Positions 28,198-56,690 of a stretch of DNA of 56,809 nucleotides are shown here, in pieces. Under the pieces are notes generated by a model, which saw only the letters and a program-made list of their open reading frames with translations, was not told the DNA's origin and searched no databases. How positions within the stretch are numbered: the stretch's first letter is position 1; every line of letters starts with the position of its first letter. The position numbers and the translations under genes were made by a program. The stretch is from Dictyobacter arantiisoli (GTDB lineage: Bacteria; Chloroflexota; Ktedonobacteria; Ktedonobacterales; Ktedonobacteraceae), in contig NZ_BIXY01000042.1 in the NCBI RefSeq assembly GCF_008326305.1, forward strand, positions 1-56,809, given 5' to 3'.

Positions 28198-28953
28198 ATG
28201 GAGTCTCACAACCTCTCTCAGCCGTCTGGTTCATCGCCCTATATGAGAGGACAAGGTGATAGCGCACCACAAATTGAGCTACTTTCTGTCATGGAACTGG
28301 CTCGTTGTTGTTCAGAGGAGACCAATAAGTTTTTGAAGCAGAGCGCATCCAATGATCGTTTCTGCCTTGAACTCTTCCGCCGGGCCATTATCACGCGTGA
28401 TGATGTGGCCTGGGCTGCTATTTATCAACAATATGCACCCCTGGTTCTGACCTGGGTGACACAACACCAGAGTGCGACCCCAATTTTAGGGCAGGATGGT
28501 AGTGCGCCGCTGGTGAATGCTGCCTTTGCGAAATTTGCTCAGGCACTTACTCCGGCCAAAATGGACCATTTTGATGCGTTGGCCGCCATCTTGAAATATC
28601 TCAAGATGTGTGTGCATAGTGTGGTGGCAGACGAAGTGCGTATCCGACAGGCGCGTCAATACGAGGAAACGCTGGAAGCGATTGAGCAAGAGCCAGCCAG
28701 TGATGATCCCGCAGATGACGTTGTTTCCCAGCTATCCGCTCAGGATCTCTGGAAACTTATTCTTGAAGAAGTGCCTGGCGAGGAAGAGCGTACGCTGATC
28801 TATGCAGCGTATGTGCATGGGATGAAGCCCGGGGAGATCAGCAACCAGCATCCACTGATGTTCGCATCGGTGGATGATGTTTATCGTATTAAGCGCAATG
28901 TGTTGGAGCGTCTGCGTCGCAATCGTCGCTTGCAGGCCTTCTTCTATAAATAA
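28198..28953 (+). CDS. Sigma-70-like (ECF-type) RNA polymerase sigma factor
   Basis: 251 residues. The middle resembles a sigma-2 region: LFRRAIITRDDVAWAAIYQQ, then LVLTWVTQH, and a long helix set DALAAILKYLKMCVHSVVAD. The C-terminal part resembles a sigma-4 helix-turn-helix: EEVPGEEERTLIYAAYVHGM, KPGEIS, DDVYRIKRNVLERLRRNRRL. Similar divergent sigma proteins occur next to zinc-finger and CHAT genes in Chloroflexota. AGGGAG lies 10 bases ahead of the ATG at 28198 (a TTG at 28192 is an alternative). It is followed at 247 bases by the zinc-finger gene on the same strand. Confidence 0.72.
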   Translation: MESHNLSQPSGSSPYMRGQGDSAPQIELLSVMELARCCSEETNKFLKQSASNDRFCLELFRRAIITRDDVAWAAIYQQYAPLVLTWVTQHQSATPILGQDGSAPLVNAAFAKFAQALTPAKMDHFDALAAILKYLKMCVHSVVADEVRIRQARQYEETLEAIEQEPASDDPADDVVSQLSAQDLWKLILEEVPGEEERTLIYAAYVHGMKPGEISNQHPLMFASVDDVYRIKRNVLERLRRNRRLQAFFYK

Positions 28954-29200
28954 TGGGCAACAACGCGTCCGAAAAGCTGGAAGAGGCGCGTTTATTCTGA
29001 AGGAGAACCAGACAAGGGCCTACTGGCCCGGGTTGAGTGCATAGGTAAACGTAGGTATTAAGCTGTTAGAATATGGTACGGTACACAACAGGGGGAGACT
29101 TTGTCGGGGGCAAGCGGGGATATAGGATAATGTGCTTGTATCGCTGCGTCGCTCCCTTTCGTGTTACTGCTAAGTAGGACGACTCCGTTGGGGGAGGGAC

Positions 29201-30082
29201 ATGTCTATCGAACCTGTATCCGACGTTGATATAGAGGAAACGCTCATGGAGTGTAGTGAACCAGGTGCTATCCGCGATGAAGAATTCGTCGCCTATCTTG
29301 AGGGTGAAAAAGTGCGGCCCGCGCTTGAAGAGCACCTTGAGCGCTGTCAAAGCTGTTCGTCTCGTCTGGTGCAATACCGGCGTATGGAAGGTCAGCTTAC
29401 AAACAAGCTCTACCGCTGGGATTGCCCGTCCAATCAATTGCTGGGAGAATATCAATTAGGTCTTCTGAGCAACGATATGGTTACGGCTATTCAGACGCAT
29501 CTGGGGATGTGCGTGCTCTGTTGTGCCGAATTGGCGACGCTGAATGACTTTCTGGCGATGGATGCATGGGTAATGGAGCGCGTGCCCGTCGCGTCCATGC
29601 AAGATGGTGTCCAATCGACAGCGCGTGCTACCTACCATCCGGTACCGGAGGCCGGGCAGACGCTTGAGCATGTGCGGGAGCAGGTCAGGGCGGGGGCACG
29701 GCGTATAGCAGCCTGGCTGGTACCACCTGCTCCGGGCTTCAGCTATCAACGTGGTTCAGCGCAACCCGGAGCGGACTGGCCGCGTGATTATCGGGCAGAA
29801 GATGTCTCGATCTCGTTACAGCTTGAAAGTAGTCTGAAGCGGCGGGATAGTATGCAATTAATTGGCCTGGTCAGTCGTCAGGGCCAGGGAATTGCAACAT
29901 TGCAGGGAATACTGGTGCAGTTAATGAATGGAAAAGAAATTGTACAGAGCCAACATATCGATGAATTAGGCAATGTCATCTTTGCTGATCTTCTTCCAGC
30001 CAGTTATAGCCTGGAACTGCACTTACCTGAAGGCATCATCATAATTGAGCCTCTCTCCATCCAGCCACCTGCATCAAGCTAG
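29201..30082 (+). CDS. Double zinc-finger anti-sigma-like protein
   Basis: 293 residues. Two Hx3CxxC motifs typical of zinc-binding anti-sigma domains are seen: HLERCQSC near residue 45 and HLGMCVLCC near 103. A basic, proline-containing linker follows, then a C-terminal beta-rich domain (about 200-290; LIGLVSRQGQGIATLQGI and SYSLELHLPEGIIIIEPL) like carboxypeptidase-regulatory or similar sandwich folds. No membrane helix is present, unlike classic anti-sigma factors. The sequence GGGGGAGGG sits just ahead of the ATG. Its place between a sigma factor and a protease-like gene suggests it holds the sigma factor in check; that is inference. Confidence 0.72.
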   Translation: MSIEPVSDVDIEETLMECSEPGAIRDEEFVAYLEGEKVRPALEEHLERCQSCSSRLVQYRRMEGQLTNKLYRWDCPSNQLLGEYQLGLLSNDMVTAIQTHLGMCVLCCAELATLNDFLAMDAWVMERVPVASMQDGVQSTARATYHPVPEAGQTLEHVREQVRAGARRIAAWLVPPAPGFSYQRGSAQPGADWPRDYRAEDVSISLQLESSLKRRDSMQLIGLVSRQGQGIATLQGILVQLMNGKEIVQSQHIDELGNVIFADLLPASYSLELHLPEGIIIIEPLSIQPPASS

Positions 30083-30208
30083 TACTCTAACAGTTGTCGT
30101 AAGGATCTCGCGACACCAGCGCGAGATCCTTAGCACTCTTGATTTTCCATTGCTCGTATATTCATATTTCTTGAATAGGGCATCGCTCATCAGATAGATA
30201 AGAATAAT

Positions 30209-33169
30209 ATGACTCCGCAAGATCTTGTGACCGCATTACTTGATATGCATGAGGAGCAAGGCCGGCAGCTCCTGCAAGCGCATGTGCCCCTCTTCAGTGA
30301 CGCCGCTTTAGACCGCCTGATGTATACGCTCAAAAACGAGGCTGATCGCAGTTGGAATACCAATGTTGACCGTTCATTAACGTTCTCTGGCTATTTATTG
30401 CTAATTGGTGATCTTACCAAAAATACCTACTATCATGCATTGGGATTGATGGCGCGGGGGGATGCCTTGCGCAGAATCAATCGCTTCGAGGAATCCTTGC
30501 CGTTTTTTGATGCGGCGGGCGATGAATTTCTACAGCTTGAGGATGAGGTAAGCTGGGCGCGTACGCGTTTTGGACGCATTAATGCCTGCCTGGGACTTAA
30601 TCGAACGACCGAGGCTCTGCAGGACGCTGAGCGGGCACATGAGATTTTTAAGCGCCATGGAAAACTATTGCGTGCGGGCCAGATTGATGTTAATGCGGCG
30701 ATTATTCATTTCGAGTTGGGGCAATATGAGCAGGCGTTGCATCTCTTTGACCGTGCCCTGGAGACCTATACCGCCTATGGCGAGGGAGTGGATCTGTATC
30801 TGGCGCGTGCCCAGGGGAATAAGGCATTGACATTAGCTGCGCAGGGTAAGTTCCGCGAGGCGGTGAAATTGCATGAGGCGGCGCGGCGCACCTTTGCCCG
30901 CTATGGAGAGGCTGAAGAGATCTCTGTGGCGCGCGAAGAATTGAATATGGCGGATATCAATGCTACTCAGGGACACTATAGTGAGGCTTTGCTGCTCTAC
31001 AATCAGTGTCGTGAGCGTTTTGTCCAGCATGGCATCGACTTTGCCGCTAACGAGGTTGCGCAGCAGATGTGTTCCTGTCTGGTACGCTTAAATCGCGCTC
31101 AAGAGGCCTATGATCTGGCTGTCGAGACGGTCGAATATTTCCGTGTTGACCGTGCGCAGCGCCACTATCTAGCGCGTTCATTGATGCAGCAGGCGGCGGC
31201 GGCAATCCTTCTGGATGATTTGCGTGGTTCCGAGGCGATGTTGCGGGAGGCCAGCAGCCTGCTTGAAGAGGGAGGCTATAGCAAATTGGCGACGCTGGCG
31301 CGTTTACAACGAGCTGAACTCTACTTTGCGGATCAGCAAATCGATGCCAGTGCACGTGAAGCCGAATATGTGGCTGATATATTCGCCGAACAAGAGGATT
31401 TGCCACGTTTAGCCCAGGCCATCCTTTTGCAGGGAAGGATCGCGGCGGCACGAGATGCTGTTCCTCTGGCGCAGGATCTCTGTGCTCAGGCCCTGTATCT
31501 GGCCCAGGAACAGGAATTGTTGGATTTAAAGTATCGCTGTTTCGATGTCCTGGGACAATTGGCCGAGCGTTGTGGTCAGTTGCAGGAGGCGGGAGCGTAT
31601 TATGAGCAGGCTATCGAGGGCATAGAAGAGGTCCAGAGTCGTTTAATATTGGATGCTCGCACCAGCTTTTTAGAGAACAAAGGTGATCTCTATCATCGCG
31701 CAATCATCCTGGCGTTGCGCCGTGCTGAGGTGGAGAAAGCCTTTGGGTATGTGGAAAAGGCTAAATCCCGCGTCGTTGGTGACTATCTGCGCCACAATCT
31801 CGATATCCGTTTGCATCCCGATGATCGTGTGAGCGAGGATATCCTGGATGCCCTGGTGACGGCACGTGAGGAGCAGGCCTGGTTTAGCTCGATCGTCTAT
31901 CATACGGAAGATGAAGCCAATCTCAGCGATACCGCTATCATGCGCATCCGCTCGGTAGATCCCACAACGGCGCGGCAGGAGATGCAGAAGCGCGAACGAC
32001 GTATAGAGCAACTATTTGAGCAGATCCAACTGCGCTCGGCTGGCTCGTCGATAGCGCGTCCCAGGAGCAATGAGACCAATTCCCAGGCCCCCGAATTATC
32101 CACTCAATTAGAGCCACGAGCCTTGCTGATTGAATATTATCTGACCGATCAAGATCTCTATATTTTTCCGATTACGGCTCAGGGCGGTGTCACGCTGCGC
32201 ACTGTACCCGGGGCGGTTGCTAAGCTTGAGCGACTCTATTCGCTCTGGCGTACCAATCTGGATCTGTCTGGTCGAGCCGCCAATACAGCGGAGCAGGCCA
32301 CTGCATTCCTGGGATTACAAGAGAACAGCCTGGGATTACTCAAGCGTTTCTATGATCTTTTGTTGCAACCAATCGAAGATCTCTTACGTCCAGCACGCCA
32401 TTTGATTGTCGTGCCTTACGGCCTGTTACACTATTTTCCCTTTCATTGTCTGCACAATGGTCAGCAATTTATGATTGAGCATTGCGAGATTTCCTATCTG
32501 CCAGCCGCTGCATTGTTAGATATTTGTCGGAAGCGTGGGCGGGCCAACTATGCTCATTCCCTCTCTCCCCAACACGCCTTAATCATGGGCCTCTCGGATG
32601 GTGGCCGTCTGGACTATGCATTACAGGAGGCGGAAATGGTAAGCCGTCAATTAGGGGTTGCCTGTGCGCTTGATGAGGATGCGACCGCTGAACTGCTCTG
32701 GCAACGTGCTCCGCTGAGTTCTATTGTGCATATCGCGGCTCACGGCCTGTTTCGACTGGATGCGCCAAACTTCTCGCATATCCAACTGGCTGATCGTCAA
32801 CTCAGTTCCATTGAAGTCTTTAACCTGGACTTATCGCATTGCTCGCTCTTAGTATTGAGCGCCTGTGAGACTGGCCGGGCCGTTGTGGGCGGTGTGGACG
32901 AAGTTATCGGCCTGGGCAGAGGTTTTCTCTATGCCGGGGCCGCCTCCTTGCTACCTACGCTCTGGAAAGTAGATGATGCCAGTAGTGCCGAGCTTATGCA
33001 ACTCTTCTACCAGGCATTACTGCATGGAGTACCCAAAGCGGCTGCCCTTGCTTACGCCCAACGGATGTTTCTGGCGCGTGCGCGTGCCTCATCTCAACCC
33101 TACCACATCCATCCCTACTTCTGGGCTGCCTTCCATCTGATAGGTGATGCCGGTCCCTTATTGAGGTGA
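30209..33169 (+). CDS. TPR-CHAT protein (caspase-like peptidase fold)
   Basis: 986 residues. About residues 60-430 are tandem TPR helices (for example LGQYEQALHLFDRALETY, GHYSEALLLYNQCRERF), and 430-600 is further helical sequence. The CHAT domain occupies about 640-985 with the catalytic pair visible: His near 842 in SSIVHIAAHGLFRLD and Cys near 886 in LLVLSACETGRAV, followed by DEVIGLGRGFLYAGA and TLWKVDDASS. CHAT domains are caspase/separase-like proteases; TPRs usually bind the partner or substrate. It lies 126 bases after the zinc-finger gene, same strand, with only a weak purine stretch before the ATG. A substrate is not known; the upstream zinc-finger protein is a natural suspect. Confidence 0.9.
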   Translation: MTPQDLVTALLDMHEEQGRQLLQAHVPLFSDAALDRLMYTLKNEADRSWNTNVDRSLTFSGYLLLIGDLTKNTYYHALGLMARGDALRRINRFEESLPFFDAAGDEFLQLEDEVSWARTRFGRINACLGLNRTTEALQDAERAHEIFKRHGKLLRAGQIDVNAAIIHFELGQYEQALHLFDRALETYTAYGEGVDLYLARAQGNKALTLAAQGKFREAVKLHEAARRTFARYGEAEEISVAREELNMADINATQGHYSEALLLYNQCRERFVQHGIDFAANEVAQQMCSCLVRLNRAQEAYDLAVETVEYFRVDRAQRHYLARSLMQQAAAAILLDDLRGSEAMLREASSLLEEGGYSKLATLARLQRAELYFADQQIDASAREAEYVADIFAEQEDLPRLAQAILLQGRIAAARDAVPLAQDLCAQALYLAQEQELLDLKYRCFDVLGQLAERCGQLQEAGAYYEQAIEGIEEVQSRLILDARTSFLENKGDLYHRAIILALRRAEVEKAFGYVEKAKSRVVGDYLRHNLDIRLHPDDRVSEDILDALVTAREEQAWFSSIVYHTEDEANLSDTAIMRIRSVDPTTARQEMQKRERRIEQLFEQIQLRSAGSSIARPRSNETNSQAPELSTQLEPRALLIEYYLTDQDLYIFPITAQGGVTLRTVPGAVAKLERLYSLWRTNLDLSGRAANTAEQATAFLGLQENSLGLLKRFYDLLLQPIEDLLRPARHLIVVPYGLLHYFPFHCLHNGQQFMIEHCEISYLPAAALLDICRKRGRANYAHSLSPQHALIMGLSDGGRLDYALQEAEMVSRQLGVACALDEDATAELLWQRAPLSSIVHIAAHGLFRLDAPNFSHIQLADRQLSSIEVFNLDLSHCSLLVLSACETGRAVVGGVDEVIGLGRGFLYAGAASLLPTLWKVDDASSAELMQLFYQALLHGVPKAAALAYAQRMFLARARASSQPYHIHPYFWAAFHLIGDAGPLLR

Positions 33170-33314: not shown

Positions 33315-33470
33315 TGTCAGACTCCCATGCTCTCCACGATCTCTGTGCATGAGTTTTCGCACCAAGGTGCTCAAAACAGTTTTTAGTGTGTGATGGAGAA
33401 AAGGTTCGAAGAACCTTTTCTCCATCACACACTAAAAAGGGCGCAGGCGCGCAAGCGCCTGCCAGCAGGT
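33315..33470 (+). repeat. R1 long-hairpin repeat, copy 2
   Basis: The core 33380-33438 is a perfect 28-bp stem with the 3-base loop GAA. The left flank is CCATGCTCTCCACGATCTC..GCATGAGTTTTCGCACC, and the right flank is the hairpin GCGCAGGCGCGCAAGCGCCTGC. It sits in the leader of the ZIP gene. Confidence 0.92.
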
Positions 33471-33562
33471 CAAACAGTAAGAACCTGATGGGGATGGGAG
33501 TTCGATATATTGTTAGCAAATGAGTCGAATGGAAAGTGCATTCGTCTCTGAAAGGATACTCC

Positions 33563-34444
33563 TTGTCTACTGGAACAATCATTCTATTGGGCGCGTTCGC
33601 TGGAGCGACGATTTTTCTGGGTTTGCCCCTGGTTTTTCTCAAGCAACTTCCACTGTCGGTCAAATATTTTTTGAACATGCTTGCCACTGGCATTCTTCTG
33701 TTCTTGTTTTTTGATGTTGTGAGCAAAGCCAGCGATCCCATCAATGCCTCTCTGCGTGCGGTACAAGCACATCATACCGCAATTGGCCCCTTCTTGTTGA
33801 ATGTTATTCTGCTCGTTCTCGGTATGGGACTGGGCTCGGTGGGGCTCGTCTATTTTAATCGTCTGGTCTTTGGACGGATGCGCACGCATACGGCTTCTCC
33901 TGTGGTCCCTGTTCAGGCTGCGGGTGATCCCATCTCCTCTTCCTCTTCTGTGAACGCAGCAAATGCGGCGTCTTCATCTGCGCTGGGAGAGCACACTCCC
34001 GCCACGCTTGCCTTGCTCATCGCCACCGGGATTGGCCTCCATAACTTCTCTGAAGGGCTCGCCATCGGGCAATCTGCGGCGACCGGGGCGCTTCAACTCG
34101 CCATTGTGCTGATTGTTGGTTTTGGTCTGCATAATATGACCGAGGGATTTGGCATTGCTGGCCCTTTGAGTGGTCAGCGTGTTTCCTGGAAATTCATTGC
34201 CCTCTTAGGATTAATCGGTGGAGGACCAACTTTCCTGGGAACCATCATTGGCATCATCTTCAATTCGCCCCAGATGTTCATTCTGTTTCTCGCTCTGGCT
34301 GCTGGCGCGATTGTCTATGTCGTGGCCGAACTGCTTGGTCAGGCCAGGCGCTTCAGGTCGCCTGAAATTGTCATGTGGGGCTTATTGATTGGTTTTCTGC
34401 TAGGATATGCGACGGATCTGATCGTGACCTACGGAGGCGCATAG
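33563..34444 (+). CDS. ZIP-family divalent metal transporter
   Basis: About 293 residues, eight or so membrane segments. The metal-binding signatures of helices IV and V are seen: GIGLHNFSEGLAIG and GFGLHNMTEGFGI. A serine/alanine-rich cytoplasmic loop (SSSSSVNAANAASSS) separates the two halves, as is usual. The protein moves zinc, iron or manganese; direction and metal cannot be told. The start is placed at the TTG at 33563 because AAAGGA lies 7 bases ahead of it; an in-frame GTG at 33536 would add 9 residues without a ribosome site. Confidence 0.9.
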   Translation: MSTGTIILLGAFAGATIFLGLPLVFLKQLPLSVKYFLNMLATGILLFLFFDVVSKASDPINASLRAVQAHHTAIGPFLLNVILLVLGMGLGSVGLVYFNRLVFGRMRTHTASPVVPVQAAGDPISSSSSVNAANAASSSALGEHTPATLALLIATGIGLHNFSEGLAIGQSAATGALQLAIVLIVGFGLHNMTEGFGIAGPLSGQRVSWKFIALLGLIGGGPTFLGTIIGIIFNSPQMFILFLALAAGAIVYVVAELLGQARRFRSPEIVMWGLLIGFLLGYATDLIVTYGGA

Positions 34445-34515: not shown

Positions 34516-35991
34516 ATGTTATTGACGATTTCCACAACACATCAGCCCGCCACCGATCTGGGATATTTGCTGCATAAAAATCCCACGCATTTACAAACAT
34601 TCTCCTTGAATTTTGGGCGCGCCCATGTCTTTTATCCCGAGGCGACGGTAGAGCGTTGTACGGCAGCTCTCCTGCTTGATGTGGATACGATTCAGATGGT
34701 GCGCGGCAAAGGGAAGGCAATTTCGTTAGATCAATATGTCAACGATCGCCCCTATGTTGCTTCATCGTTTTTGAGCGTTGCCATGGCTGAGGTGTTTAGT
34801 TCGGCTCTCAATGGCCGCTGTGCTCAACGGCCTACGCTTGTGACGACAGCGCTTCCACTGCAGGCGCAACTTGCGGCTATCCCGTGTCGCAAGGGTGAGG
34901 ATTGGTTGCGTCGTTTGTTCGAGCCATTGGGCTATCATGTTGAAGTGGTACAACATGCGCTTGATGAAAAGCATCCCGAGTGGGGTCAGAGTCCCTATTT
35001 CACCGTAACGCTTAGCGCTGAACGCCGTTTGAGCGAGCTATTGACGCATCTCTATGTCTTGATCCCAGTGCTGGATAATTCCAAGCATTACTGGATTGGC
35101 GATGATGAAGTCGATAAGTTATTGCGGCGTGGACAGGGATGGCTGGAGAAACATCCCGAGCGCGTGCAGATTGCTTTTGCTTATTTGCATCATAAACGCA
35201 CGCTGGTCAATGATGCGTTGGAGCGCCTGATTGCTGAAGAGGTTGGTGTCGAGGAGGCTGAGGTTGAGGCTGAGGCTGAAGTGCTACCAACCACTGAAGT
35301 AGAGGAATCTACTGAGACTGTTGAGATCGGTGCCGTTCCAGAGATAGCCATGGAGAAGAAGCTTCCCAATTTGCATGAGCAGCGTTTGCAGGCGGCATTG
35401 GAAGTCTTGAAAGAGCATGGGGCGAAGCGTGTACTGGATCTGGGATGTGGCGAGGGACGCTTGCTCAAAATGTTGCTGCAGGAGAAGAGCTTCGAGCATA
35501 TTCTGGGCCTGGATGTATCGTATAAGGCATTGGAAATTGCTCAGAAACGTCTGCATCTTGATCGTCTCCCACCTCGCCAGCGTGAGCGCATTACTTTGAT
35601 TCATGGCGCGCTCACCTATCGCGATAAGCGCCTTGAGGGCTATGATGGCGCGGCCGTCGTCGAGGTGATTGAACATCTGGATCAATCTCGCCTGTCGGCT
35701 TTTGCGCGTGTGCTATTCGAGTTTGCCCATCCAGAGACGGTAGTCATTACAACGCCCAATGCCGAATATAACGTCAAATATGAGACCCTGCATGCCGGTA
35801 CATTTCGGCATCAAGATCATCGCTTTGAGTGGACGCGAGAGCAGTTTCAGTCCTGGGCACAGCAGATTGCCCGGCAGTTCGGCTATACCGTCAGCTTTGT
35901 CCCGATAGGACCTGAGGATGCCGGGGTAGGCGCGCCCTCTCAAATGGGCATCTTTGCTCGAAGTAGCGCGATCAAGGAGGAAAATGCATGA
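34516..35991 (+). CDS. hen1: Bacterial Hen1: RNA 3'-terminal ribose 2'-O-methyltransferase
   Basis: 491 residues. The N-terminal ~240 residues (MLLTISTTHQPATDLGYLLH) are the ligase-activating/Hen1-N domain. An acidic linker (about 240-275, EVEAEAEV) follows, then the methyltransferase: SAM motif VLDLGCGEGRLLKML and the metal/catalytic set EVIEHL and RHQDHRFEW. In the known bacterial system Hen1 methylates the 2'-OH at the cleaved RNA end before Pnkp seals it, so the repaired site resists a second cut by the same ribotoxin. Its stop overlaps the start of pnkp (ATGA), so the two are translationally coupled. Confidence 0.95.
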   Translation: MLLTISTTHQPATDLGYLLHKNPTHLQTFSLNFGRAHVFYPEATVERCTAALLLDVDTIQMVRGKGKAISLDQYVNDRPYVASSFLSVAMAEVFSSALNGRCAQRPTLVTTALPLQAQLAAIPCRKGEDWLRRLFEPLGYHVEVVQHALDEKHPEWGQSPYFTVTLSAERRLSELLTHLYVLIPVLDNSKHYWIGDDEVDKLLRRGQGWLEKHPERVQIAFAYLHHKRTLVNDALERLIAEEVGVEEAEVEAEAEVLPTTEVEESTETVEIGAVPEIAMEKKLPNLHEQRLQAALEVLKEHGAKRVLDLGCGEGRLLKMLLQEKSFEHILGLDVSYKALEIAQKRLHLDRLPPRQRERITLIHGALTYRDKRLEGYDGAAVVEVIEHLDQSRLSAFARVLFEFAHPETVVITTPNAEYNVKYETLHAGTFRHQDHRFEWTREQFQSWAQQIARQFGYTVSFVPIGPEDAGVGAPSQMGIFARSSAIKEENA

Positions 35992-38552
35992 AGATTACTG
36001 TTCCTGAACTTTCATTGGTTATCTTGATCGGCCCATCTGGCTCGGGGAAATCTACCTTTGCGCGTACCCATTTCAAAGCTACCGAAGTGCTTTCATCCGA
36101 TGTGTGTCGTGGACTGGTCTCTGATGATGAGAATGATCAATCTGCCACGCCTGATGCGTTTGCCGTTTTGAACTTTATTGCGGCGAAACGTCTGGCGGCA
36201 GGGCGCTTAACGGTCATTGATGCGACTAATGTTCAGCCGGAGGATCGCAAAAGGTTGCTAACACTGGCGAAGCAGTATCATTGTCTGGCTACTACGATTG
36301 TGTTTAATCTGCCCGAGAAGCTCTGCCATGAGCGCAACCGTGAGCGTTCAGATCGACAATTTGGGCCGCATGTGGTGCGCAATCAGATCTTGCACTTGCG
36401 CCGTTCATTGCGTCTGCTAAAGTCAGAGGGCTTTCATCATATTTATGTGCTCTCATCACCCGAACAGGTAGCGGAGGTTGAGATTGAGCGCGAGCCATTA
36501 TGGAGCAATCTCAAATCCGAACATGGGCCATTTGACCTGATCGGGGATATCCATGGGTGCTTTGTTGAAGTGCGCGCATTATTGCAGCAACTGGGCTATA
36601 CACTTTCTATTCAAGAACAGGACGAGCCTCGCTATCAACTTACCCATCCTGAGGGGCGCAAAGTAATTTTTCTGGGTGATCTTGTGGATCGAGGCCCGGC
36701 GACACCTGAGGTGTTACGCCTGGTCATGGACACAGTTGCGGCTGGAACGGCTTTGTGCGTTCCGGGTAATCACGATATCAAGTTGCTGCGTAAGCTCAAA
36801 GGGAAAGATGTCACGTTAAAGTATGGTATTGTGGAGAGCCTGGAACAGCTTGCCCAGGAACCGGTTTCCTTTACAAAACGTGTAATAGCTTTTCTGGATA
36901 GCCTTACCAGTCATTACGTGTTGGATAATGGGGCACTGGTTGTGGCACATGCAGGCTTGCTAGAGTCGATGCATGGTCGTGGCTCACGCGCTGTGCGCGA
37001 GTTTTGTCTGTATGGCGAAACAACTGGCGAGACCGATGAATTTGGTTTGCCTGTGCGCTATAATTGGGCCAGCGACTATCGTGGACGAGCCATGGTAGTT
37101 TATGGGCATACGCCGATCCCTCAACCAACCTGGTTGAATAATACCATCAATATTGATACAGGCTGTGTCTTTGGTGGTCATTTAACGGCGCTGCGCTATC
37201 CAGAAAAACAACTGGTGGCGGTTCCGGCACAGCGTGTCTACGCTGATCCAATTCGTCCTCTGGCGGTGAATAGTGAACCGGCCACGCTGACTGCCCAGCA
37301 GCAGCATGATGATATATTGGATGTCGCAGATGTGACTGGCAAGATGTTAGTGAATACACGCCTGCGGCAGCAAATCACCATTCGCGAAGAGAATTCTATT
37401 GCCGCATTAGAGGTGATGAGCCGTTTTGCGACCAATCCAAAATGGTTAATCTATCTTCCACCGACGATGTCGCCCAGTGAAACCAGTCAGGCACCTGGAT
37501 TGCTCGAGTATCCTGAAGAGGCTTTTGCCTATTATCGTGCTGAGGGGATCAAGCAGGTTATTTGCGAAGTCAAGCATATGGGATCGCGAGCGGTGGTGAT
37601 TGTCTGCCGGGATGAGCAAGCGGCCCAGCGACGGTTTGGCGTAATTGGCGAAGGGATCGGTATTTGCTATACACGCACGGGCCGCCGTTTCTTCGATGAT
37701 CTGGAACTTGAAAAGGTGCTCTTGCAGCGTGTTCACGCCGCGCTGGATGCCACGAATTTCTGGGAGCGTTTGCAGACGGATTGGGTGTGTCTGGATTGTG
37801 AATTATTGCCCTGGTCGGTTAAGGCACAATCCCTGGTCTTGAAGCAATATGCCGCAGTTGGCGCAGCATCCCGCGTTTCATTGGATCAGGCTGTGTCAGC
37901 TCTGACGCAGGCGAGCCAGCAGGGAATCGATGTTACGGAAGTATTGCAAACGTATCAGCAACATCAGACATTGGCGCAACGCTATGTTGAAGCTTATCGC
38001 CAGTATTGCTGGCCCGTTGCAAGTGTTGACGATCTTAAACTGGCACCTTTCCATCTGTTAGCCACCGAGGGACAGGTACATATCGACAAGGATCATCACT
38101 GGCATATGGAGACATTGGCCGAAATTTGCCGTGCCGATGAGCGCTTATTATTAGCAACTCCCTATCTGACGGTAGAGGTCGATGATCCTGCAAGTGTGCG
38201 CAATGGAATTGAATGGTGGCAGCATGTTACCAGCCATGGTGGTGAAGGTATGGTTGTCAAGCCACTTGATTTTATCGCGAATGGCAAACACGGTATCTTG
38301 CAACCGGCGGTCAAGTGTCGTGGCGCAGAATATTTGCGCATCATTTATGGGCCTGAATATGATGTTCCTGAAAATTTGACACGTTTACGCTGGCGCAAAC
38401 TGAGTGCCAAGCGCTCGCTCGCCTTACGCGAATTTGCTCTGGGTATTGAAGCACTGGAACGTTTTGTCCAGAGGGAGCCACTGCGGCGTGTCCACGAATG
38501 CGTCTTCGGTGTCCTGGCCCTGGAAAGCGAGCCGGTTGATCCCCGACTGTAA
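35988..38552 (+). CDS. pnkp: Polynucleotide kinase-phosphatase-ligase (bacterial Pnkp)
   Basis: 854 residues with three activities for RNA repair. The 5'-kinase comes first: P-loop GPSGSGKSTF at about residue 12. The metallophosphatase follows (FDLIGDIHGC near 184, FLGDLVDRGP, GNHD near 260 and VYGHTPIP), removing 2',3'-cyclic or 3' phosphates. The C-terminal ligase-type adenylyltransferase has the nucleotidyl lysine in EVKHMGSRA near residue 529 and GEGMVVKP later. Pnkp needs Hen1 to ligate; both are encoded as one overlapping operon. A likely purpose is undoing tRNA cleavage by ribotoxins. No toxin gene is visible close by. Confidence 0.95.
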   Translation: MKITVPELSLVILIGPSGSGKSTFARTHFKATEVLSSDVCRGLVSDDENDQSATPDAFAVLNFIAAKRLAAGRLTVIDATNVQPEDRKRLLTLAKQYHCLATTIVFNLPEKLCHERNRERSDRQFGPHVVRNQILHLRRSLRLLKSEGFHHIYVLSSPEQVAEVEIEREPLWSNLKSEHGPFDLIGDIHGCFVEVRALLQQLGYTLSIQEQDEPRYQLTHPEGRKVIFLGDLVDRGPATPEVLRLVMDTVAAGTALCVPGNHDIKLLRKLKGKDVTLKYGIVESLEQLAQEPVSFTKRVIAFLDSLTSHYVLDNGALVVAHAGLLESMHGRGSRAVREFCLYGETTGETDEFGLPVRYNWASDYRGRAMVVYGHTPIPQPTWLNNTINIDTGCVFGGHLTALRYPEKQLVAVPAQRVYADPIRPLAVNSEPATLTAQQQHDDILDVADVTGKMLVNTRLRQQITIREENSIAALEVMSRFATNPKWLIYLPPTMSPSETSQAPGLLEYPEEAFAYYRAEGIKQVICEVKHMGSRAVVIVCRDEQAAQRRFGVIGEGIGICYTRTGRRFFDDLELEKVLLQRVHAALDATNFWERLQTDWVCLDCELLPWSVKAQSLVLKQYAAVGAASRVSLDQAVSALTQASQQGIDVTEVLQTYQQHQTLAQRYVEAYRQYCWPVASVDDLKLAPFHLLATEGQVHIDKDHHWHMETLAEICRADERLLLATPYLTVEVDDPASVRNGIEWWQHVTSHGGEGMVVKPLDFIANGKHGILQPAVKCRGAEYLRIIYGPEYDVPENLTRLRWRKLSAKRSLALREFALGIEALERFVQREPLRRVHECVFGVLALESEPVDPRL

Positions 38553-53862: not shown

Positions 53863-54310
53863 TTCTCTTTATTTATTACCGCCTTCGGCGGGGGAGAGAA
53901 AAGAGAAAGGGTGGGGAACACCCCACACCCCGGCAGAGGGACTGACCGTCCCTCTGCACTCCCTATAACATACAGGGAGAGAAAAGAGCAAGGATTAGAG
54001 CGCATTCCCATGCCTCGGCAGAGGAACGGCTAATCCCTCTGCACTCCCTATAACATACAGGGAGAGAAAAGAGCAAGGATTAGAGCGCATCCCCATGCCT
54101 CGGCAGAGGGACTGACCGTCCCTCTGCACTCCCTATAACATACAGGGAGAGAAAAGAGCAAGGATTAGAGCGCATCCCCATGCCTCGGCAGAGGAACGGC
54201 CAGTCCCTCTGCACTCCCTATAACATACAGGGAGAGAAAAGAGCAAGGATTGGAGCGCATTCCCATGCCTCGGCAGAGGGACTGACCGTCCCTCTGCACT
54301 CCCTGCATGT
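53863..54310 (-). repeat. R2 repeat copy f with four 85-bp tandem units
   Basis: It opens with CCGCCTTCGGCGG and GGGGAACACCCC hairpins, as in other R2 copies. Units then start at 53965, 54050, 54135 and 54220 exactly 85 bases apart, each with CCCTATAACATACAGGGAG, a purine run and a GCAGAGG..CCTCTGC hairpin. Units 1 and 3 share one variant (GAGGAACGGC) and 2 and 4 another (GAGGGACTGACC), showing a later 170-bp duplication. It stops 10 bases before the next gene's end. Confidence 0.93.
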
Positions 54311-54319
54311 TATAGGGAT

Positions 54320-55081
54320 CTAGGCCAGCGAGATGCGTGGGATGCGCGGTAAGGTGATGTCGATGTCACTATCAAGCCGTGTTGTGCTATCCACGATGGC
54401 GATGTGGATCTGTTCGTTGCTCAGATTATGGACTTCTTGCAATGTGGCACCAACGAGGACCGCATCATTTAAATCAGTCACCAGCAAATTCGCGCCAGTG
54501 AGATCTGCGCCGGTAAAGTCGGTATTAACGCAGTTGGCGGCCGACAGATCAGCTCCGATCAGGCTGGCACCACGTAAGCAGGCTCCGCTCAGATCAGCCA
54601 TGAACAAATTGCTATTCGCCAGATCGACGTTACGCAGATCCGCGCCGTGGAGATAGCGATACGAAAGATCATAGCCGCTGAGATTTGCCCCACGCAGGCT
54701 GCGTGACAGCAATGGGACAGTTGTATGCGGCGTCATTATCCCTTTTGTATCCTGCGTTCTGGCAGGCAATGGTGTATCCTCAACGCGTGGCACATGGGAT
54801 AATTCATATTTCACGCGATCCGCCTCGAGCATCAGACGTTGCTCGGTCTCTTTCTGAAGCTGCTCCAGATGGGCATTGAGCTCATTTTCCAGCTGAGAGA
54901 GCAATTTATCCTGACGCTCTTCCCATTGTTTTTTATGGGTATCCTGAGCACATTCCCAGGCCGCTTGCTGATGCTGAAGCCGCTCCAGACCACGCTTTTG
55001 TATCTGTACAGCAATTAATGCGCAGCACAATACAATGATACAACTACCAATAACACCACCAATAAGTAATAATTCAAGCAT
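54320..55081 (-). CDS. Membrane-anchored pentapeptide-repeat protein
   Basis: 253 residues in three parts. A membrane helix at 4-26 (LLLIGGVIGSCIIVLCCALI) is followed by a coiled coil at about 28-95 (rich in Q, E, K; LLSQLENELNAHLEQLQKET). From about 125 to 215 run pentapeptide repeats (SLRGANLSGYDLSYRYLHGA, LSGACLRGASLIGADLS), with a short tail. Anchored by its N-terminus, so the beta-helix is probably cytoplasmic. Function unknown. GGGGGA sits 5 bases ahead of the ATG. Confidence 0.88.
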   Translation of the reverse strand: MLELLLIGGVIGSCIIVLCCALIAVQIQKRGLERLQHQQAAWECAQDTHKKQWEERQDKLLSQLENELNAHLEQLQKETEQRLMLEADRVKYELSHVPRVEDTPLPARTQDTKGIMTPHTTVPLLSRSLRGANLSGYDLSYRYLHGADLRNVDLANSNLFMADLSGACLRGASLIGADLSAANCVNTDFTGADLTGANLLVTDLNDAVLVGATLQEVHNLSNEQIHIAIVDSTTRLDSDIDITLPRIPRISLA

Positions 55082-56351: not shown

Positions 56352-56690
56352 TTAGAGTGTGTCAGCCTCCCGTGGTCTCCACAGTCTCTGTGCATGAGTT
56401 TTCGCACCTGCGGTGCTCAAACATCTTTTTATTATGTAGTGCAGGAAAGGTGCACAGCACCTTTCCTGCACTACATAATAAAAAGGGCGCAGGCGCGCAC
56501 GCGCCTGCCAGCCAGGGAGCAGCAAGATCCCGCTGGTACTGGGGCTGTCAGCCCCCCATGCTCTCCACCATCTCTGTGCATGAGTTTTCGCACCTGCGGT
56601 GCTCAAACATCTTTTTATTATGTGATGTAGAAAAGGTTCGAAGAACCTTTTCTACATCACATAATAAAAAGGGCGCAGGCGCGCACGCCT
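56352..56690 (+). repeat. R1 long-hairpin repeat, copies 4 and 5 in tandem
   Basis: Two direct copies about 186 bases apart. Cores 56426-56484 and 56612-56670 are each perfect 28-bp stems with 3-base loops (ACA and GAA). The flanks are nearly identical between copies (GTGCATGAGTTTTCGCACC, GGTGCTCAAACATC) while the stems differ at many paired positions. Copy 5 breaks off after GCGCACGCC, where unrelated sequence starts. Confidence 0.93.

Follow-up and report, generated by a model that had tools for sequence, protein, structure and literature searches.

A conserved sigma factor, zinc-finger protein and TPR-CHAT gene trio in Dictyobacter arantiisoli, a candidate CRISPR-free proteolytic sigma switch

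Regulated proteolysis of the RseA/RsiW type cuts an anti-sigma factor and thereby frees its sigma factor (cited in PMC10028731), with both the anti-sigma factors and the proteases being membrane proteins. The locus considered here encodes a sigma factor, a zinc-finger protein and a TPR-CHAT protease-like protein at positions 28198-33169 of a 56,809-nucleotide stretch of Dictyobacter arantiisoli DNA (the window, contig 42 in a genome of 7.2 Mb), and its closest described counterparts are as follows. In CRISPR type III-E, Csx29 cleaves the anti-sigma factor Csx30, gripping the Csx30 C-terminal domain and cutting within a loop close to where this domain starts, and the Csx30 N-terminal domain binds CASP-sigma (PMC10028731). 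CalpL, CalpT and CalpS of CRISPR type III are a soluble protease, an anti-sigma factor and an extracytoplasmic function (ECF) sigma factor (PMC11417357). The ECF54 sigma genes of Actinobacteria have carboxypeptidase, subtilase and CHAT proteins encoded nearby, and proteolytic control without an anti-sigma factor has been proposed for them (PMC8999054).

The window locus is composed of three open reading frames (ORFs) on the + strand encoding, in order, a sigma-like protein (251 aa), a zinc-finger protein (293 aa) and a TPR-CHAT protein (986 aa), confirming the cluster reported in the first-pass annotation of the window. The trio is real and well conserved, and a CRISPR-free proteolytic sigma switch is plausible but unproven. 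In the favored reading, held with modest confidence, the CHAT protein would cut the zinc-finger inhibitor near residue R184 in a soluble system, freeing the sigma factor. Directly observed are the gene order, its conservation, gene fusion, the catalytic residues and the tracking of a C-terminal beta domain (CTD) and its Arg with the CHAT gene. The features of the locus are as follows.

28198-28953, + strand: divergent ECF-type sigma factor, 251 aa (TIGR02937 E=6e-8, below cut-off)
29246-30082, + strand: zinc-finger anti-sigma-like protein (longest ORF 29201-30082; NCBIfam antisigma E=3e-7, below cut-off)
29333-29356, + strand: zinc finger 1, H45x3C49x2C52 (invariant in 37 aligned proteins)
29498-29521, + strand: zinc finger 2, H100x3C104x2C107 (invariant in 37 aligned proteins)
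29750-29755, + strand: R184-G185, candidate CHAT cut or docking site (Arg conservation among CTD proteins near CHAT)
29777-30079, + strand: CTD of SdrD_B / CarboxypepD_reg type, candidate CHAT-recognition domain (PF17210 E=0.012, below cut-off)
30209-33169, + strand: TPR-CHAT protease-like protein, 986 aa (PF12770 E=4e-59; Csx29 is the best solved CHAT relative)
32741-32743, + strand: predicted catalytic His, H845 (kept in 51 of 51 CHAT proteins covering the site)
32864-32866, + strand: predicted catalytic Cys, C886 (kept in 51 of 51 CHAT proteins covering the site)

Craspase (Csx29, Csx30 and CASP-sigma) shares with the trio a TPR-CHAT protein with catalytic His and Cys, an ECF sigma factor and an anti-sigma factor with N-terminal sigma-binding and C-terminal protease-binding parts, the last being predicted here. 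The CHAT domain aligns with Csx29, and the closest solved CHAT relatives are Csx29-type chains matched over residues 727-933 (E=3e-4 with the single sequence and 1.6e-10 with a profile); kinesin light chain TPR matches outscore Csx29 in the profile search, but over the repeats only. Differences are the zinc fingers of the inhibitor and the score against the NCBIfam Csx29 model NF041237, where 66.7 bits (E=1.9e-18) falls short of the cut-off of 300. The soluble protease, anti-sigma factor and ECF sigma factor design is also that of CalpL/T/S, whose protease is described as Lon-type with a SAVED sensor and not TPR-CHAT. No CRISPR array is found in a direct-repeat scan of the window, a scan that was not accompanied by a search aimed at cas genes, and PADLOC gives no telling match for a defense system.

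The 986-residue TPR-CHAT assignment made at first pass is borne out by the PF12770 match, which is above cut-off. The catalytic pair had been placed at His 842 and Cys 886; the Cys stands, whereas position 842 is an Ile and the predicted catalytic His is H845, the motif reading H841-IAA-H845-G plus C886. Among 52 aligned CHAT proteins one is cut by a contig end, and the remaining 51 all conserve both residues. A CHAT model built from a two-row alignment (window and locus L174; L and G numbers denote loci and genomes) has a pLDDT (predicted local distance difference test) of 49.0, values of 70-90 being confined to a portion of the TPR region. The genome (G000) contains seven CHAT matches, and among the matches listed only the trio copy is a full-length match to the trio-type protein.

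The zinc-finger protein carries Hx3CxxC motifs at H45 and H100, as first annotated, and both are invariant together with C75 across 37 aligned homologues, so that the zinc motif of ZAS-type anti-sigma factors is present twice. Profile matches to NCBIfam antisigma and zf-HC2 (E=0.0014) are both under cut-off, and against solved structures the best relatives are anti-sigma factors with weak scores (E 0.03-0.13), one chance-like hit being set aside. A 19-residue hydropathy scan of the protein reaches a maximum of 1.54 and gives no membrane helix, in agreement with the earlier claim and in contrast to RseA/RsiW systems. The protein probably starts at Met16 (position 29246) because the matching Met is the start in most orthologues. 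A model from the two-row alignment with L174, from Dictyobacter vulcani, has a pLDDT of 39.7. Binding of the sigma factor is suggested by family membership and supported by linkage and three fusions.

By its profile match the window sigma factor is a weak, divergent ECF-type sigma, in keeping with the label "divergent" given at first pass, and TIGR02937 is matched at E<=0.001 in 16 of 31 members of its family. In three loci (L190, L191 and L194) sigma factors above the TIGR02937 cut-off occupy the same place beside a CTD protein and CHAT; the profile-profile match between these canonical sigmas and the window type is weak (probability 4.3). Dictyobacter vulcani is the closest named match, with 76% identity across the CHAT protein, and its sigma ORF is split across two overlapping frames (L042 938-1752; L174 7977-8791), which is either a sequencing error or a broken gene.

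Searches with each of the three proteins covered 47 genomes from the class Ktedonobacteria, and the resulting neighborhood survey shows the genes together in relatives, and not rarely. The gene order sigma, zinc-finger, CHAT is found in 26 of the 47 genomes, among them 25 of the 29 that belong to the family of D. arantiisoli; the genes also lie together in further families, and sigma and zinc-finger protein are fused in three loci. These 26 include two genomes with a CHAT gene truncated at a contig end (G030 and G045) and one with a split sigma ORF (G026); a further genome (G021) has a trio locus broken over contigs. All three genes are present in 33 of the first 52 loci fetched, and paralogous trios with about 35% identity occur. 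Among the matches listed, 31 of the 33 genomes that encode both sigma and zinc-finger proteins have a full-length trio-type CHAT (exceptions G028 and G029), against 0 of the 14 genomes without them, in a search where the best 17 candidates were scored in many genomes and copies may be missed.

The zinc-finger profile matches 70 of 400 Chloroflexota genomes, and 34 loci outside the class were fetched, leaving out about 20 other short zinc-finger matches of the same search. Eight of these hold the plain trio (L154-157, L162, L164, L166 and L167), and in three the sigma, zinc-finger and CTD parts are joined in a single ORF beside CHAT (L168, L170 and L171). A divergent CHAT gene is next door in one (L165), and the above-cut-off ECF sigma with CTD protein and CHAT makes up three. 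A CTD or zinc-finger protein adjoins CHAT with no recognized sigma adjoining in five (L163, L169, L188, L192 and L193), sigma and zinc-finger proteins lack an adjoining CHAT in 11 (L158-161, L172, L173 and L195-199), and three (L187, L189 and L200) are spurious or had been fetched before. The trio is thus kept together across Chloroflexota families, and because it is conserved phylum-wide the arrangement far exceeds chance. Plasmid searches with the CHAT query matched other CHAT genes and with the zinc-finger query gave no match; eight plasmid regions (three unannotated, two of these profile-scanned) contain no sigma or zinc-finger neighbors, and viral contigs gave no matches.

The segment after the last zinc motif was aligned for 81 proteins, 54 near CHAT (counting L070 with inserted genes and L165 with divergent CHAT) and 27 elsewhere. 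An Arg occupies the R184 position in all 54 proteins near CHAT and in 17 of the 27 others (nine gaps and one Gln). Six further CHAT neighbors (L188 and L190-194) carry the Arg as judged by eye, giving 60 of 60. Five of the 27 loci (L079, L086, L091, L095 and L160) end no more than 500 bases from a contig end, so that an adjacent CHAT is possible there; without them the Arg is present in 13 of 22. Of these 13, seven (L075-077, L087, L097, L158 and L159) come from genomes with a trio-type CHAT at another place, and a CHAT remnant adjoins L093. The losses are confined to two lineages (L079, L081, L082, L096; and L099, L101-105). Zinc-finger proteins lacking the CTD are never beside CHAT (0 of 14, 13 short ones and L195, with L199 at a contig end), and in two genomes CTD-only proteins directly precede CHAT (L106 and L107) while their sigma/zinc-finger pairs lie elsewhere (L075 and L076). 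CarboxypepD_reg (PF13620) matches the CTD in four of 37 aligned homologues at E<=0.01 and also in L194. Over these alignments, presence of the CTD and of its Arg goes with a neighboring CHAT gene.

The proposed mechanism would run as follows. From the family relationship, the two N-terminal zinc fingers would hold the sigma factor inactive; from co-occurrence, the CTD may be the grip for the TPR-CHAT protease. The TPR part would sense some cue and trigger the CHAT protease to cleave the zinc-finger protein. The likeliest position for this cut would be directly behind the conserved Arg184, shortly ahead of the beta domain, and the cut inhibitor would be destabilized to release sigma. Because the zinc fingers would stand for the sigma-binding part of Csx30 and R184 lies just before the CTD, the cut is proposed near R184. 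CHAT-type proteases such as separase prefer Arg. Of the soluble switch proposed at first pass, co-occurrence, fusions, Csx29 kinship and CTD/Arg tracking can now be pointed to, and binding, cutting and its site, the TPR trigger and the regulon are inferred. The wider formulation, put forward tentatively, is a phylum-wide, chromosomal, CRISPR-free and perhaps ancestral form of the Craspase sigma switch. In it, CHAT would cleave the zinc-finger anti-sigma factor on the C-terminal side of a single conserved Arg, some species would have sigma and anti-sigma joined in one chain, and many lineages would use a subtilase as the second protease.

Zinc-finger anti-sigma factors of this kind are often redox or metal sensors, and many genomes carry sigma/zinc-finger pairs without CHAT. 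The pair could accordingly be an ordinary redox- or metal-sensing one with CHAT (and the subtilase in relatives) as regulon effectors that do not act on the anti-sigma factor, but this would leave unaccounted for the tracking of CHAT by the CTD and R184, the CTD-only proteins beside CHAT and the Csx29-Csx30 parallel, and is considered unlikely. Across 38 trios (43 before removal of three fusions, L165 and one split sigma), pairwise distances for the three proteins are correlated at 0.91-0.96, a result that would fit shared ancestry as well as interaction and does not separate them. The CHAT-sigma value of 0.96 and the co-inheritance of the two genes could be read as CHAT cutting the sigma factor itself and turning the response off; this is very improbable, as the CHAT-tracking features sit in the zinc-finger protein and some CTD-CHAT loci have no recognized sigma nearby.

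A subtilase of one family adjoins CHAT in 27 related loci, and CTD proteins without zinc fingers occur (L106, L107 and L194), which would suit a zinc-finger/CTD protein acting as CHAT regulator or pseudosubstrate, with R184 docking uncut and the real target being another protein such as the neighboring subtilase. In the stretches examined for the window lineage no such subtilase lies downstream of the trio, yet the Arg, CTD and catalytic residues are kept, making this explanation quite improbable. A subtilase of that family is present in the same genome, unlinked to the trio (L180 1363-3036, contig 38 of G000).

Several observations weigh against cleavage of the zinc-finger protein by CHAT as the favored reading. 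The trio genes lie 250 and 129 bases apart, which leaves their co-transcription uncertain, and no autoregulatory promoter motif is clearly common to the Dictyobacter-genus loci (four or five rows). The sigma match to TIGR02937 reaches 32.5 bits and not the curated cut-off of 42.9. Two CHAT-subtilase loci (L074 and L109) have no zinc-finger gene. The Arg is kept in L089, L110 and L111, where no trio-type CHAT was found, and in L112 and L161 without an adjacent one. The genomes with Arg losses (paralogous pair; L081, L082, L096; L099, L101-105) retain the orthologous trio CHAT elsewhere, so only the missing cognate CHAT sets them apart. Finally, the loci were chosen via zinc-finger/sigma matches and are related, so the Fisher tests overstate independence and are descriptive.

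Other features of the window lie outside the trio. Downstream of CHAT are genes for Hen1 and Pnkp (34516-38552), which together form a pair for bacterial RNA repair; they follow CHAT in four of five genomes of the genus, are absent from this place in the other genomes examined, and were rejected as a system component. A ZIP-type metal transporter gene between CHAT and Hen1 (33536-34444) has no counterpart next to the trio in D. vulcani or in other relatives examined. A long inverted repeat, perfect-looking by eye, directly follows the CHAT gene (about 33388-33432). A tandem array with an 85-nt unit (53921-54345) and a 143-nt direct repeat whose two copies are 88% alike (56360-56688) do not resemble a CRISPR array.

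The gene association is partly in print, the ECF54 description in a review (PMC8999054) naming CHAT, subtilase and carboxypeptidase proteins. Compared by description only, the window trio shares the CHAT gene beside the sigma gene, and a subtilase adjoins CHAT in the related loci but does not lie downstream of the trio in the stretches examined for the window lineage. ECF54 is reported without an anti-sigma factor, whereas here the zinc-finger protein with its carboxypeptidase-regulatory-like domain is a candidate for one. No paper on a non-CRISPR trio was found in the literature searched, which did not extend to primary ECF54 studies, nor were the zinc-finger inhibitor, the fusions, the Arg or the Csx29 link found there. 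If the proposed switch is correct, the protease/anti-sigma/sigma logic of Craspase and CalpL/T/S would exist outside CRISPR as an ordinary chromosomal system, a missing anti-sigma factor would be proposed for ECF54-like loci, and R184 would provide a one-residue prediction for cleavage.

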